Shown here: positions 58,614-64,000 of the stretch, piece after piece
How the letters are laid out: every line of letters begins with the position of its first letter
How positions within the stretch are numbered: position 1 is the first letter of the stretch
From: Oceanibaculum indicum P24
GTDB taxonomy: Bacteria > Pseudomonadota > Alphaproteobacteria > Oceanibaculales > Oceanibaculaceae
DNA length: 64,000 nucleotides
Direction: 5' to 3'
NCBI RefSeq assembly: GCF_000299935.1
Contig: NZ_AMRL01000001.1
Coordinates: 310,001-374,000, forward strand
Program-made: the position numbers and the translations under genes
The notes under the pieces: generated by a model
The model's input: the letters and a program-made list of their open reading frames with translations, nothing else
Told to the model about the DNA's origin: nothing
Databases searched by the model: none

Positions 58614-58898
58614 TTACGCTCCCGGATAATCCGGTTGCATCGCTGGAGCAGCCTGCCTGAAGGCCTCGAGTGTGCGGCACTCGGCATCGACCGCCAGAAG
58701 ACAGGGATAGGGCGACAATTCACAGTTAAGCCGCCGCGCATTGTCCATCTGCGGAACCAGGCAGGCATCCGCGAGGCCCGCCACTGAACAGAGCGGGTAG
58801 CCGAATCCGGTAAGCGTGTGCGCAAAATCAGCTCCGGGACAATTGCCTGAAACACAATTGCCCAAACTGGTACCCAGAACGGCCAGGGTCTTATGCAT
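58614..58898 (-). CDS. Small Cys-rich protein of sox operon (94 aa)
   Basis: 94-residue protein starting MHKTLAVLGTSLGN, with seven Cys including NCVSGNC, LCSVAGLADAC, NCELSPYPC and AEC. The ATG at 58898 has an excellent GGAGGG Shine-Dalgarno 9 bases upstream, and the gene starts 27 bases after the FCSD stop, so it belongs to the sox operon. No heme CxxCH motif, clear signal peptide or known family is apparent. Cys-pair spacing could hold a metal or carry sulfane sulfur. The third codon position is less GC-biased than in neighbours. Confidence 0.6.
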   Translation of the reverse strand: MHKTLAVLGTSLGNCVSGNCPGADFAHTLTGFGYPLCSVAGLADACLVPQMDNARRLNCELSPYPCLLAVDAECRTLEAFRQAAPAMQPDYPGA

Positions 58899-58925
58899 AG
58901 GGTATGACCCTCCAATTACCAACCG

Positions 58926-60197
58926 CTAACCGAACAGCTCCAACGTCAGACCGGCATACCAGCCGGCGGAATCCTCGTAATTTGCGCGGCGTGTCGCGGC
59001 ATCGTCATCGAGGGTGGAGATATCGCTGACGGTCTGTTCGATCCTGTCCGGTCCCGGTTGGTACTCGCCGCCGACGAAGACGCTGTCATCCGGGCCGATC
59101 AGGCTCCAGCAGCGGTTGCGGTAGGCAGCGGCCGGCGCGCCGGCCTCCAGCAGGTCCCGGGCGATCACCGCCGCCACCATCTGCGCCTGGCTGTTGGCGG
59201 CGAAAGCCGATTTCGGCATGTCGCCGGCAATCGCCGAATCGCCCAGCACGAACACTGCCGGATCGGCGCGCGACTGCATGGTCCGCGGATCGACCGGGCA
59301 ATAGAGGCTGGCATCCGTCAGGCCCGCCTCAATGGCGAGGCGGCCGGCGGTCTGGCGCGGGATGACATTGACGAGATCGGCATTCCGGTAGGTCTCGAAC
59401 CCGGTCTCGACCGTCATGGAGGACGGATCGACGTTGCCGATGCCGGCATGAATGGCCGGCGGCATCCATTCGATCATGCCGGGATAATATTTCTCCCAAC
59501 CCTGCTGGAACAGCGGCTGCTTGGAGAATCTGTCCTTCGGATCGAGGATCACGATGCGCGCCCGGGTACGCCCGGTCGAGGTCAGCGCATGCGCCATCAT
59601 CGACACCCGTTCATAGGGGCCAGGCGGACAGCGGTAGGGGTTCGGTGGAGCGATCACAACAATCAGGCCGCCATCTGGCACGGCGTCGATCTGGCGCTTC
59701 AGAAGCTCGGTCTGCTGGCCGGCCTTCCAGCCATGTGGCATGCGTTCCTCGGCCTCGCGCGACCAGCCGGGCACCGAGGCATAGTCCAGATCGATCCCCG
59801 GCGACAGGACCAGCCGGTCATAGGGCAGAACGGCTCCGCCGGCGAGCGTCACCTGCCGGCGCTCCCAGTCGACGGCGCGTGCCGCATCCCTGGCCAATGT
59901 CACGCCGGGCAGTTTCGCAATCGCCGCATAATCGTGGCGCAACGCCTCCATCGGCAGGAACCCGCCAAGAAACAGGTTGGAATAGAAGCAGCTGGTATAG
60001 ACCGCCTGCGGTTCGACCAGCGTGATGTCGAGCGCACCATTCGCCAGTCCTGCCAATCGCCGCAGGACCGACGCCCCACCTGCGCCGCCACCAACGATCA
60101 CTACCTTCGGACGCGCCTGTCCGATGACCGGCATGGAGAAGCGACCCGTGGCAGGCAGGCCCGCCGCCCCGGCAAGGAAATGCCGTCGTGTCAGCAT
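58926..60197 (-). CDS. soxF: FCSD-type flavoprotein (SoxF/FccB sulfide dehydrogenase)
   Basis: 423-residue flavoprotein. A twin-Arg signal (MLTRRHFLAGAAGL) exports it folded; the FAD-binding motif VVIVGGGAGGASVLRRL is at about 30. A redox Cys pair is present (VYTSCFYSN and SLYCPVDPRT), as is the C-terminal FCSD domain (NYEDSAGWYAGLTLELFG). It oxidises sulfide to sulfur and normally hands electrons to a cytochrome c (FccA/SoxE); no such partner gene follows here. The ATG at 60197 lies 11 bases after soxA. The frame to 60371 is rejected because it overlaps soxA. Confidence 0.92.
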   Translation of the reverse strand: MLTRRHFLAGAAGLPATGRFSMPVIGQARPKVVIVGGGAGGASVLRRLAGLANGALDITLVEPQAVYTSCFYSNLFLGGFLPMEALRHDYAAIAKLPGVTLARDAARAVDWERRQVTLAGGAVLPYDRLVLSPGIDLDYASVPGWSREAEERMPHGWKAGQQTELLKRQIDAVPDGGLIVVIAPPNPYRCPPGPYERVSMMAHALTSTGRTRARIVILDPKDRFSKQPLFQQGWEKYYPGMIEWMPPAIHAGIGNVDPSSMTVETGFETYRNADLVNVIPRQTAGRLAIEAGLTDASLYCPVDPRTMQSRADPAVFVLGDSAIAGDMPKSAFAANSQAQMVAAVIARDLLEAGAPAAAYRNRCWSLIGPDDSVFVGGEYQPGPDRIEQTVSDISTLDDDAATRRANYEDSAGWYAGLTLELFG

Positions 60198-60208: not shown

Positions 60209-60970
60209 TTATCTGCGGATGGCGGGCGTCTCGATGGCGACACCCTCCGCGCGTTTCGCCAGATACAGCTCCAGAGCCAGATAGTCGGGCGACCCATAAT
60301 CGAACTGAACGGCCCGCACCCCGTATGAACAGGAGCGCAGACGTCGCTGCAGGGAACCAACCGACTGCCATTCCAGGCGATAGGCCGGATAGCCATTGCC
60401 CAGCCCGTGGCTGATCGTGTCGCCGCGCAACGACCGACCGGCATTGTCGTCATGGCACTGCGCGCAGGACAGGTTCAGCTGCCCCTGCCTTCGGTGGAAG
60501 AACGCCTCCCCGGCGGCATAGAACGGCGCCGCCGTGCCGCCCGTCTCAACCTGTACCGGCATACCGAGAGACTGGCGGGCCACGAAGGCGGTGAGACCAA
60601 GCAACTGGTCCGTCTCATAAGCATAGGGCTCGACCTCCTGATGCCGGGTCCGGCACAGATTGATCCGGCCCTCCAGGTTGAGCAGATCGCCACTCTCCGC
60701 ATCGACCGCCGGATACCGCGTCGCCACACCCCGCATGCTGGCCGCATCGGCACCATGGCAGGACGCGCAGGCCTTGCCCGCAGCACCTTGCGGAGTGGCC
60801 CACAGGCGTGCGCCCTCATCGACCCAGAGCATGCCGGGATTGGCCGCCTCGTCCGCCTGCCGCGCTTTCAGCTCCTCGCTGAGGAAGCTGGTACCGGACG
60901 GCAGCGGTTCGGCTTGGACCCCGGCGGAAATGAACAGCGCCGCCAGGATGAGGACGCGGCCTGCGATCAT
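60209..60970 (-). CDS. soxA: Sulfur-oxidation diheme cytochrome c SoxA
   Basis: 253-residue periplasmic cytochrome with a Sec signal (MIAGRVLILAALFISAGVQA). Two heme motifs CASCH and CAQCH are present, and the active-site Cys ligand in RSCSYGVRA; one further CRTRH is not a heme motif. With SoxX it catalyses oxidative attachment of thiosulfate to the SoxY carrier Cys. The start overlaps the soxZ stop (ATGA). Length suits the diheme SoxA class. Confidence 0.95.
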   Translation of the reverse strand: MIAGRVLILAALFISAGVQAEPLPSGTSFLSEELKARQADEAANPGMLWVDEGARLWATPQGAAGKACASCHGADAASMRGVATRYPAVDAESGDLLNLEGRINLCRTRHQEVEPYAYETDQLLGLTAFVARQSLGMPVQVETGGTAAPFYAAGEAFFHRRQGQLNLSCAQCHDDNAGRSLRGDTISHGLGNGYPAYRLEWQSVGSLQRRLRSCSYGVRAVQFDYGSPDYLALELYLAKRAEGVAIETPAIRR

Positions 60971-61296
60971 TCCGTGACCGTCAGGCTCTTGCGCACCGTG
61001 ACCACCTCACCGCGATCATCCTCCCAGGTGAACACCAGCTCGCCGGTGCGGGTGGCCACCGTGCTAAAGGCGATGAAGGGGTTGGCGGCGACGCCCTGGG
61101 TCATATCCATGCGGAACACCTCCTCCCCGTCATAGGCGACGGCAAAGCGCCGCACGATGTGCCGGGGGATCGGCTGGCCGCGCGAATCCACGCGATAGCC
61201 GGTCTCCATCGGATGCCGGATCAGCGCCTTGATCTCCAGGATCTCGCCCCGCCGGGCTTCAGCCGGCATCGAGACCCGTGCCTGTGCGAGCGCCAT
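60967..61296 (-). CDS. soxZ: Thiosulfate oxidation carrier complex protein SoxZ
   Basis: 109-residue immunoglobulin-like protein starting ALAQARVSMPAEARRGEILE, typical of SoxZ, with IKALIRHPMETGYR and FTWEDDRGE. It has no signal peptide because it rides to the periplasm with Tat-exported SoxY. It forms the SoxYZ heterodimer that carries sulfur intermediates. It starts 9 bases after soxY and overlaps soxA. Confidence 0.95.
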   Translation of the reverse strand: MALAQARVSMPAEARRGEILEIKALIRHPMETGYRVDSRGQPIPRHIVRRFAVAYDGEEVFRMDMTQGVAANPFIAFSTVATRTGELVFTWEDDRGEVVTVRKSLTVTE

Positions 61297-61305
61297 GGGT
61301 TTCTC

Positions 61306-61755
61306 CTATCCGCCGTCGATGCAGGCGGCGATGGTGACGATCACCGACTTCGTATCGCGCCAGAAGCTGCCATCGCTCATCTCCGCGAGGGCGGTGACCT
61401 TCTGCGAGGCGCCGAGGCGGATATTCGTCGAGACCTTCGCCACCCCGGCGCGCGGGCCAAGATGCCAGGTCAGTAGATGCGCAATCGGATTCTGTTCCGA
61501 CAGGATGTGGATCGCTTTCACGTGATCCCCGGCGGTCATCGGGCTCTCCACTGAAACGGTCGTATAGACCGACAGCCCGTTCTCGGCGACCGAGGGAATG
61601 GTCAGCGTCACCCGCCCATCCCTTACGGTGGCCCCTTTGGTGAGCGCGGCAACCGCCTCGTCGCGCATCTGCGGCGTCGCCTTCACAAGGCCCGGCAGCA
61701 AGGCCATGCCCCCGGCAAGGCCGGCGCCGACGATGATCTGTCTGCGTGTCTGCAT
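61306..61755 (-). CDS. soxY: Thiosulfate oxidation sulfur carrier SoxY (variant C-terminus)
   Basis: 149-residue SoxY. A Tat-type leader (MQTRRQIIVGAGLAGGMALL) precedes the carrier domain (VAENGLSVYTTVSVESPM, GDHVKAIHILSEQNP). The carrier Cys usually sits in a terminal GGCGG arm; here the end is VTIAACIDGG, so the Cys (145) is five residues from the end and flanked differently. It still can carry a covalent sulfur chain, but docking in SoxB/SoxAX/SoxCD could differ. Starts 3 bases after soxX. Confidence 0.93.
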   Translation of the reverse strand: MQTRRQIIVGAGLAGGMALLPGLVKATPQMRDEAVAALTKGATVRDGRVTLTIPSVAENGLSVYTTVSVESPMTAGDHVKAIHILSEQNPIAHLLTWHLGPRAGVAKVSTNIRLGASQKVTALAEMSDGSFWRDTKSVIVTIAACIDGG

Positions 61756-61758
61756 CGG

Positions 61759-62217
61759 TCAGTCCGTCAGGGTTTTCAGATAGGCCACCACATCCTCGAT
61801 CTCCTGCGCCTCCAGCGCCGGCTTGTCCTGGTATTCCGGGGCCACGTCGCGCAACCTCTCGACACGATAATAGGGCGGCATGATCGTGCGCGGGCTGATC
61901 CGGCTCTGGTCGATCAGCCGCAATCTGATCTGCCCTTCGTCCAGCCGCGCGCCCACGCCGGCCAGCGCCGGGCCAAGCTCGCCCTGGAACGGTTCGCCCG
62001 GGACCGGCACCGAATGGCAGATCAGGCAGTTGCCACGCCGCCGGTCCAGCACCACTTCCCGCCCGCGTTCAGGATCGCCGGTAAGCCCGCCAAGCGGCTG
62101 GGGAACAGAATCCCCCTGTACCGTATAGGGGAGCAACTCTGCTCCCGAGGCACCCTGGCTGCCGACCGTGGCAAGCAGCCAGAGCGCTACCGGGAGAAGC
62201 CTGCCGCCTGGCGTCAC
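61759..62217 (-). CDS. soxX: Sulfur-oxidation monoheme cytochrome c SoxX
   Basis: 152-residue periplasmic cytochrome. A signal peptide (MTPGGRLLPVALWLLATVGS) is followed by one heme site CLICH (about residue 64) and a distal Met in RTIMPPYYR. The ending EIEDVVAYLKTLTD is a class I cytochrome c helix. It is the electron-accepting partner of SoxA. It starts at GTG 62217 with GAGGT upstream, only 11 bases after the molybdenum hydroxylase stop, so it may be co-transcribed with that gene. Confidence 0.94.
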   Translation of the reverse strand: MTPGGRLLPVALWLLATVGSQGASGAELLPYTVQGDSVPQPLGGLTGDPERGREVVLDRRRGNCLICHSVPVPGEPFQGELGPALAGVGARLDEGQIRLRLIDQSRISPRTIMPPYYRVERLRDVAPEYQDKPALEAQEIEDVVAYLKTLTD

Positions 62218-62228
62218 CCCGGACTACC

Positions 62229-64000
62229 TCACGCCGAGCCTAGATCGTGCTTCGACAGCGGCAGTTCACGGATACGCTTGCCGGTGGCGGCGAAGATCGC
62301 GTTCAGCACCGCCGGAGCCGCGACCGCGATGGTCGGCTCGCCGACCCCGCCCCAGAAGCCGCCGGAGGGCATGATGATGGTTTCCACCTCAGGCATCTCG
62401 GCAATCCGCATGATCTGGTAGCTGTCGAAATTCTGCTGCTCGATCCGTCCGTCCGCCACCGTGCATTCGCCATACAGCATCGCCGACAGGCCATAGGCGA
62501 AGGAGCCTTCGACCTGGGCCTCGACCTGCTGCGGGTTCACCACATGGCCGCAGTCGGTCGCCGCCACGATCCGGTGAATCTTCAGCTGCCCGTTCGTCAC
62601 CGACACCTCGGCGCAGGCCGCGATGTGGCTGCCGAACGCGGTGCACTGCGCCAGCCCCCGAAACACACCCTCGGGCGCCGGACTGCCCCAGCCGGCCCGC
62701 TCCGCGACAGCGCGCAGCACCGCCGCGTTCTTCGGGTGCCTGTCCATCAGCTTCAGGCGGAATTCCAGCGGGTCCTTGCCGGCGGCATGCGCCACCTCAT
62801 CGATAAAGCATTCGGTATAGACGCTGTTCTGGTTGGCATTGACGCCGCGCCAGAAACCCGGCGGGACGTGCGGGTTGCGCATCGCATGATCGACCAGCAG
62901 GTTCGGAAAGCTGTAGCTGATCGCATGATCGCCCTGCGGCAGATAGCACTGGAAGGTGATCATGTCGGCGCCGTTGCTGAGGCGCTGCGGCATGACCCCG
63001 GCCAGGATCGACTGCCCGGAGATGCGGACCCGGAAGGCCGTCACATCGCCGTTGGCGTCCAGCCCGGCGGTCAGCTTGCACTGGGTGATCGGGTGGTACA
63101 TGCCGTGCGTCATGTCCTCCTCGCGCGACCACAGCAGCTTGACCGGCGTACCCGGGAACTCCCGGGCAATGAGGACCGCCTGACGGACATAATCATGAAA
63201 GGCGCCACGCCGCCCGAAACCGCCGCCCAGATGCAGCTTGTGAACATCGCATTGCTGCAGCGGCAGGCCGGCGGCCTCCGACGTAGCAGCCAGCGCCGCC
63301 TCGCCATTCTGGGTCGGGCACCAGACTTCGCAGCGATCCTCGGTCCAGACCGCCGTGGCATTCATCGGCTCCATGGTGGCGTGGTTCTGGAACGGATAGG
63401 AATAGACCGCCTCCACCGTGCGTTCCGCCCTGGCGAGGGCTGCCTCGGCATCGCCATTGCTGTTGCCGACGAACGCCTGATCGGCGGTCAGCCCTTCCTT
63501 CACGAAATCGTCGATCGAAGCGCTGGTGACCTTGGCATTCGCCCCTTCGTTCCAGGTGATGGGCAGGGCGTCGAGCGCGCTCTTCGCCTGCCACCAGCGG
63601 TCAGCAACAACAGCCACCGCATTGCCATCGACCGCGACGACCTTCTTCACGCCAGGCATCGAGAGGACCGCCGACTCGTCGAACGAATCGAGCGTACCGC
63701 CGAAGACCGGACACTGACGGATGGCGGCATTCAGCATGCCGGGAAGCTTGAGGTCGGCGCCGTAAACCTGCTTGCCGGTCACCTTCTCGGCGGTGTCCAG
63801 GCGCTTCAGCGGCTGGCCGATGACGGTCCAGTCCTTCGGGTCCTTCAACTGAACGCCCGTCGGCACCTCAAGCCGGGAGGCCGCCTCGGCGACCTTGCCG
63901 AACGTGGTGCTGCGGCCCGAGGCGGCATGGGTGATCACCCCCTTGCTCGCCCGGCACTCGCCCGGTGCCACGCCCCATTCCCGGGCGGCCGCCATGATCA
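62229..64000 (-). CDS. Molybdopterin-binding hydroxylase large subunit (IorB/XDH family), partial
   Basis: At least 590 residues; the 5' end lies beyond the window. It is the large molybdenum-cytosine-dinucleotide subunit of the isoquinoline 1-oxidoreductase/xanthine dehydrogenase family. Visible are KLHLGGGFGRRGAFHDYV (cofactor loop), a VPPGFWRGVNANQN loop, RIVAATDCGHVVNP and the catalytic Glu motif GVGEPTIAVAAPAVLNAI. It hydroxylates N-heterocycles or oxidises aldehydes, probably periplasmically in the IorB type. Its substrate and its link to the sox genes downstream are open. Confidence 0.9.
   Translation of the reverse strand, partial: IMAAAREWGVAPGECRASKGVITHAASGRSTTFGKVAEAASRLEVPTGVQLKDPKDWTVIGQPLKRLDTAEKVTGKQVYGADLKLPGMLNAAIRQCPVFGGTLDSFDESAVLSMPGVKKVVAVDGNAVAVVADRWWQAKSALDALPITWNEGANAKVTSASIDDFVKEGLTADQAFVGNSNGDAEAALARAERTVEAVYSYPFQNHATMEPMNATAVWTEDRCEVWCPTQNGEAALAATSEAAGLPLQQCDVHKLHLGGGFGRRGAFHDYVRQAVLIAREFPGTPVKLLWSREEDMTHGMYHPITQCKLTAGLDANGDVTAFRVRISGQSILAGVMPQRLSNGADMITFQCYLPQGDHAISYSFPNLLVDHAMRNPHVPPGFWRGVNANQNSVYTECFIDEVAHAAGKDPLEFRLKLMDRHPKNAAVLRAVAERAGWGSPAPEGVFRGLAQCTAFGSHIAACAEVSVTNGQLKIHRIVAATDCGHVVNPQQVEAQVEGSFAYGLSAMLYGECTVADGRIEQQNFDSYQIMRIAEMPEVETIIMPSGGFWGGVGEPTIAVAAPAVLNAIFAATGKRIRELPLSKHDLGSA

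Follow-up and report, generated by a model that had tools for sequence, protein, structure and literature searches.

An AAC-arm SoxY of Oceanibaculum indicum is encoded in a SoxB-less operon with SoxXA and a molybdenum hydroxylase, a gene combination found in many bacteria

The SoxY gene of Oceanibaculum indicum P24 at positions 61306–61755 of the window, that is, the whole stretch of 64,000 nucleotides that we analyzed, belongs to one conserved operon. This operon encodes SoxXA, a SoxYZ pair with an A-C-x-(E/D) arm, usually an FCSD-type flavoprotein, and a Tat-type molybdenum (Mo) hydroxylase made of a large and a [2Fe-2S] subunit, and it contains no SoxB. We consider it likely that this SoxY is the carrier half of a periplasmic Sox system that works without SoxB and in which both SoxXA and the periplasmic Mo hydroxylase are served by SoxYZ. 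In many bacteria, a carrier with an altered tip is paired with a Mo enzyme in place of the usual enzyme for sulfate release, which hints at a widespread periplasmic pathway.

This has consequences for annotation and for physiology. Genomes bearing the operon can be counted as thiosulfate oxidizers on the presence of soxXYZA, though the operon is without SoxB, and the sole published expression study describes it, in the portion of the paper available to us, as near silent on thiosulfate (PMC3797975). If SoxYZ feeds the Mo hydroxylase, Sox carriers would have a wider role, and a testable function could be assigned to a cluster that Bradyrhizobium, Mesorhizobium, Polynucleobacter, and many others possess.

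The SoxY Gene and Its Operon in O. indicum

Translation of 61306–61755 on the minus strand yields a SoxY of 149 aa that starts with what appears to be a Tat signal, MQTRRQIIVGAG, and has the C-terminal end VIVTIAACIDGG. It matches the Pfam SoxY family PF13501 with 104.3 bits, for a family cut-off of 28.4, and aligns with the solved SoxY chains 2ox5/2oxg (E ~2e-15) over a region reaching the carrier Cys. This residue, Cys145, is the single Cys of the C-terminal arm. As stated in the preliminary description of this DNA, the usual terminal GGCGG is replaced by AACIDGG, which puts the carrier Cys in the fifth-last position. The same description had allowed for an error in the last codons. We rejected a sequencing error because the identical ending recurs in a second species of the genus (G002, locus L005), in Filomicrobium insigne (L060), in a Rhodomicrobium sp. 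(L061), and at L059 and L071, two of these genomes being MAGs. The genome of O. indicum P24 encodes one SoxY.

The best-scoring NCBIfam family for this protein is TIGR04487, "SoxY-related AACIE arm protein." The window SoxY has the A-C-x-acidic arm of this family and belongs to its clade; its score of 167.2 bits (166.5 in a second search) narrowly misses the cut-off of 172, and on these scores we class it as a near member rather than a member. The AAC arm is therefore not unprecedented, since NCBIfam already carries it as a named family. Against canonical SoxY (TIGR04488), the protein scores 101.4 bits, below the cut-off of 125, and it reads AACIDGG where that family ends in GGCGG.

The genes of the operon are the following:

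58926–60197 (−): FCSD/SoxF-type flavoprotein, Tat-like signal, three FCSD Cys retained (PF21706 and PF09242; 5n1t, E 1e-98)
60209–60970 (−): soxA, diheme, active-site Cys (RLRSC), 4-base overlap with soxZ (TIGR04484, 228 bits; SoxA of 1h31/2c1d aligned over nearly full length)
60967–61296 (−): soxZ (NCBIfam TIGR04490, 88 bits, cut-off 76; Pfam SoxZ)
61306–61755 (−): soxY, AAC-type arm (VTIAACIDGG end), Tat-like signal, carrier Cys145 (translation, family and structure matches)
61759–62217 (−): soxX, c-type cytochrome, GTG start, 3 bases upstream of soxY (TIGR04485, 71.7 bits, cut-off 61)
62229–64000 (−), continuing past the window to ~64400: large Mo subunit of a xanthine-oxidase-family hydroxylase, Tat-like signal (PF02738, PF20256; nearest solved chain 8gy3_C, E 5e-74)
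L002 8415–8870: [2Fe-2S] small subunit, beyond the window on the far side of the Mo gene (neighborhood reading)

Along the minus strand in the 5′ to 3′ direction, the order is [2Fe-2S] subunit, Mo subunit, SoxX, SoxY, SoxZ, SoxA, and FCSD-type flavoprotein, and the genes inside the window are spaced by about 12 bases or less or overlap. The full gene of the Mo subunit corresponds to G000:C1:372232-374400, G000 being the O. indicum genome. Its product is a Mo hydroxylase of the xanthine-oxidase family, with the Mo-cofactor domains, the Glu of GVGEP, and a [2Fe-2S] partner subunit carrying its Cys.

Two other features border the operon. Upstream of it are a response regulator and a sensor kinase (L002 9020-11220), relatives of which lie near 10 and 9, respectively, of 103 clustered loci; these regulators are a possible handle on the inducer of the operon. 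On the other side, a 102-aa ORF at 58614–58922 (−) looks like a fragment, its middle presumably resembling the C-terminal part of a maleylacetoacetate isomerase/glutathione S-transferase.

Distribution and Anatomy of the Arm

The TIGR04487 cut-off is exceeded in 20 of 385 alphaproteobacterial genomes. We also scanned named genomes with two peptide patterns derived from an alignment of 15 AAC-arm SoxY, which gave at least 584 confirmed stretches, 80 of them kept. They span Bradyrhizobium, Mesorhizobium, Filomicrobium, Rhodomicrobium, Polynucleobacter, Polaromonas sp. JS666, Rokubacteria MAGs, and others (MAG names as in the records). SoxY matches weaker than those fetched were inspected in part. 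The resulting 105 arm loci are not all independent, as L054 and L136 are one contig.

The arm pattern caught 99 of the 105 loci. At these, the residue before the carrier Cys is Ala in 98 cases and Ser in one, and the second residue after it is acidic in all 99, frequencies that are biased toward AACx(E/D) because 80 of the 105 loci were found via patterns partly containing this motif. Directly after the Cys stands L, I, T, V, F, M, or Q; two to six residues make up the tail following the Cys, which is IDGG in the window SoxY. The six loci missed by the pattern have a PAC arm, with a Glu at +2 from the Cys. Two further SoxY (L161 and L163) carry a GAC-acidic arm, after which another 36 and 22 residues come, respectively, so the carrier Cys is not close to the end.

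In a SoxY tree calculated without the last residues of the arm, 54 of 55 xAC sequences form one group (SH-aLRT 90), with two label changes, the sequence outside being L031; the xAC group had been defined only after the arms had been seen. This tree, weakly resolved with its 115 columns, holds 102 of 167 distinct SoxY bodies, with the AAC rows thinned to about one quarter, 4 of 11 fusions included, and the PAC-arm rows left out.

Conservation of Catalytic Residues

Residues whose roles we take from the respective families are almost invariant among the partners of these SoxY. All 98 SoxA sequences have the two CxxCH motifs as well as the RxRxC Cys, and all 99 SoxX sequences have their CxxCH together with a Met. 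The redox Cys pair of FCSD is present in 64 of 66 sequences at each position, the Mo-site Glu (GVGEP) in 93 of 94 Mo subunits, and the five Cys checked in the [2Fe-2S] small subunit in 86 of 86. Between the two Oceanibaculum genomes G000 and G002, dN/dS is 0.125 for soxY, 0.07 for soxZ, and 0.149 for soxA. Judged by this conservation and by the low dN/dS, which disfavor such a reading, the operon does not look like a relic.

Association of the Arm with the Mo Hydroxylase

The neighbors of SoxY at the 105 arm loci include SoxZ at 104, SoxX at 99, SoxA at 98, the Mo subunit at 96, the [2Fe-2S] subunit at 87, FCSD at 66, and SoxB at none. Six of the nine loci without an adjacent Mo gene end at contig ends; for the three others (L053, L085, and L118), a Mo subunit of 60–65% identity is encoded elsewhere in the genome. 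Among the 385 alphaproteobacterial genomes, with a threshold of E ≤ 1e-200 for the Mo subunit match and an xAC arm set of 35 genomes, both partners occur in 31, the Mo subunit only in one (G069), the arm only in four, and neither in 349. The four arm-only genomes comprise one with a truncated Mo gene (G149) and three with a weaker Mo match adjoining SoxY (G014, G081, and G365). The xAC set omits G231, with an SGC-I arm, and nine genomes with GAC-S or GAC-GG arms (G193, G314, G287, G078, G364, G128, G085, G291, and G199); with these nine added, a Mo match at E ≤ 1e-200 is present in 31 of 44 genomes. Within the genus, arm and Mo enzyme are both found in G000 and G002, and G001 and G003 gave neither a SoxY match nor a full-length Mo-gene match above 38% identity.

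SoxY genes that adjoin SoxB present another picture, with the GGCGG ending in 32 of 32 genomes (a set of 17, among which the arm of L153 was read separately, and a set of 15). The two types coexist in Bradyrhizobium: all nine genomes searched encode at least one GGCGG SoxY plus one AAC SoxY, and SoxB lies near the GGCGG gene in the three genomes examined for it. The preliminary description had taken the unusual arm as a sign of an adapted set of partners. Gene linkage agrees with this insofar as the AAC-type arm goes with the Mo hydroxylase and not with SoxB. It does not agree for SoxAX, which is retained as a partner; since SoxXA is kept with intact motifs (active-site Cys and heme motifs of SoxA in all 98 sequences), the suggestion that the arm no longer suits SoxAX is not supported.

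The linkage between arm and Mo enzyme is strong but not strict. The single contig of G069 (L226, G069:C1:2348000-2365000) has the order FeS-Mo-SoxX-SoxA, soxYZ being absent between soxX and soxA, and no SoxY match was obtained anywhere in this genome; SoxYZ is thus dispensable there. Five genomes (L265–L269) encode a SoxY with a GAC-S ending, together with SoxXYZA in four and FCSD in three, and the stretches fetched contain neither a Mo gene nor SoxB. This group led us to reject the rule that any Ala before the Cys means a Mo enzyme. Minimal FeS-Mo-SoxYZ loci without adjoining SoxXA were found at L106, L123, L130, and L133. SoxA is encoded elsewhere in these four genomes, in one case within an isolated SoxX-SoxA pair, and we accordingly rejected the idea that SoxXA is dispensable in such loci. 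Conversely, in three MAGs of betaproteobacterial type, SoxXYZA sets with a TAC-LD arm lie away from the Mo gene (L216, L217, and L218), and FeS-Mo-SoxYZ is on another contig. A shared condition alone could also account for operon linkage, without any direct interaction of SoxY with the Mo enzyme.

Public annotation does not distinguish between these kinds of SoxY, as illustrated by a Roseomonas marmotae plasmid (L058), where a SoxY with a GAC-VETG arm beside Mo genes is annotated "thiosulfate oxidation carrier protein SoxY."

SoxB and SoxCD

The preliminary description had pointed out that soxB and soxCD are not in view, and the same holds beyond the window. Searches of the O. indicum genome, which is 98% complete, gave no SoxB over the cut-off (best match to the SoxB profile 21.6 bits vs. 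550) and no SoxC match at E ≤ 1e-100; the genome does not encode the SoxB and SoxCD that characterize a canonical Sox system. A check on SoxB absence as a correlate of the arm brought out no whole-genome correlation: SoxB is present in 2 of the 20 alphaproteobacterial genomes over the TIGR04487 cut-off and in 36 of the remaining 365, the same rate. Genome-wide absence of SoxB was therefore rejected as the cause of the arm. SoxB is missing from the operon and not specially excluded from the genome.

Proposed Function and Alternative Explanations

In the mechanism that we favor, SoxXA would oxidatively join a thiol or sulfur species to the Cys of SoxY, as it does in the classical pathway (PMC5336275, from the part available), and the loaded arm would pass to the Mo hydroxylase in place of SoxB and SoxCD. 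Replacement of GGCGG by AACx(E/D)xx would then reflect the changed second partner, a bulkier, acidic arm fitting a different second enzyme. Our guess for the subsequent steps is that the Mo enzyme might hydroxylate the carrier-bound group and that the flavoprotein might oxidize the freed sulfide or persulfide, with electrons going to c-type cytochromes. Thiosulfate is an unlikely substrate of the operon because of the data from Starkeya novella (PMC3797975) and Bradyrhizobium diazoefficiens (PMC5748708), as far as the accessible parts of these papers report them. An organic thiol, to hazard a guess, would give each gene of the operon a task. In one version, which we put forward as a rather improbable speculation, the operon would encode a periplasmic pathway for cleaving C-S bonds of substrates attached to a carrier protein: SoxXA would link the organic thiol to SoxY through a mixed disulfide, hydroxylation of the carbon adjacent to the sulfur by the Mo hydroxylase would give an aldehyde and a SoxY persulfide, and the FCSD-type flavoprotein would oxidize the sulfur. 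If this is true, the Mo hydroxylase would act on a substrate bound to a protein, and organic sulfur would have a new way into Sox chemistry.

Other roles for this SoxYZ have to be weighed against a carrier shared by SoxXA and the Mo hydroxylase. It might be an ordinary thiosulfate/sulfide Sox carrier with a tolerated tail, from which another hydrolase releases sulfate or sulfur, the Mo enzyme being an unrelated neighbor. The residues of sulfur chemistry are indeed intact in SoxXA and FCSD, FCSD is a known family of sulfide oxidases, and the O. indicum genome does contain a distant match to the SoxB profile, at 21.6 bits. However, the arm is not random, as the Ala preceding the Cys and the acidic residue at +2 hardly vary; the Mo gene accompanies it across classes, even when unlinked; SoxY adjacent to SoxB retains GGCGG in all 32 genomes; and the S. 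novella cluster is hardly expressed on thiosulfate, according to the part of that study at hand (PMC3797975). We therefore regard an ordinary carrier as improbable. Slight, too, is the chance that SoxYZ aids the Mo enzyme without carrying its substrate, either by sulfur delivery or repair at the Mo center or by clearing inhibitory thiosulfate or sulfide. Enzymes of the xanthine-oxidase family do require a Mo=S ligand, but its insertion takes place in the cytoplasm, prior to Tat export, and such an aid would leave the presence of SoxXA and FCSD in the operon unexplained. In its favor, G069 retains the Mo enzyme and SoxXA without SoxYZ, and there has been speculation about a similar role of the SoxYZ fusions that accompany PQQ dehydrogenases, SoxYZ-like carriers recurrently adjoining periplasmic dehydrogenases in the excerpts available (PMC11237559, PMC12997753).

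Finally, the cluster might be cryptic or a relic without function, as proposed for the second sox cluster of S. novella. In the available part of that work, its SoxAX and SoxYZ were undetected and its expression was poor on glucose, methanol, or thiosulfate, and the authors suggested "no functional significance" while leaving other conditions possible (Kappler and co-workers 2013; PMC3797975). We consider this very improbable for the operon described here, given dN/dS values of 0.07–0.15, near-invariant catalytic residues, and a range extending from Bradyrhizobium to Polynucleobacter and Rokubacteria MAGs. A SoxYZ carrier serving both SoxXA and the Mo hydroxylase thus remains our preferred reading.

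Comparison with Known Systems

The closest named relative of the window SoxY is TIGR04487 (SoxY_para_1), which it matches over the whole length (positions 2–146 of 146), including AAC followed by a hydrophobic and an acidic residue. It differs by lying 4.8 bits under the cut-off and by reading AACID instead of AACIE; the family listing gives a name and no function. With canonical, GGCGG-ending SoxY (TIGR04488), it shares the family, the Tat-like signal, the single arm Cys, and the SoxZ and SoxXA partners, but its score is 101 bits for a required 125 and it has no GGC, SoxB, or SoxCD. The quinoprotein dehydrogenase-associated SoxYZ-like carriers (TIGR04557), encoded next to PQQ dehydrogenases, are likewise SoxYZ-type carriers linked to a periplasmic dehydrogenase and not to SoxB. 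Unlike the window SoxY, which scores 55.6 bits against their cut-off of 140, they are SoxY-SoxZ fusions with an internal GGC and occupy a separate branch of the tree. As for the Mo subunit, it aligns over its whole length with the large subunit of a periplasmic aldehyde dehydrogenase of the xanthine-oxidase family (8gy3_C, E 5e-74), with the Mo-site Glu retained; we know of no Sox genes beside that enzyme.

In the literature, a full-text search for "AACIE" returned no SoxY-related paper by title, and among open-licence papers we found neither a report of the link between arm and Mo enzyme nor a description of the Sox-Mo operon other than that in S. novella. The available parts of other studies contain related observations. 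Of the two soxY genes of B. diazoefficiens, only soxY1 is essential for thiosulfate oxidation (PMC5748708); soxY2 is, we infer, of the AAC type. A large survey deleted SoxY sequences without GGC as being of poor quality, and the AAC-arm branch was thereby left out of it; the same work discusses fused SoxYZ proteins encoded next to alcohol and methanol dehydrogenases, which set a precedent for the pairing of a carrier with a dehydrogenase (PMC11237559).

The S. novella "second sox cluster," soxX2Y2Z2A2F2 with a xanthine-oxidase-family Mo enzyme and no SoxB or SoxCD, is the nearest known system (PMC3797975, partly available). Compared by gene content, it shares with the window operon the Mo enzyme, SoxX, Y, Z, and A, a SoxF-like flavocytochrome, and the lack of SoxB and SoxCD, and the window operon has all the components of such a Sox-Mo operon. 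The S. novella cluster was described in one organism; the window operon has instead its flavoprotein after soxA and no small cytochrome alongside. Both the arm family and the operon were thus already known, and the new part is the generalization that this type of arm and the Mo enzyme go together across many lineages.
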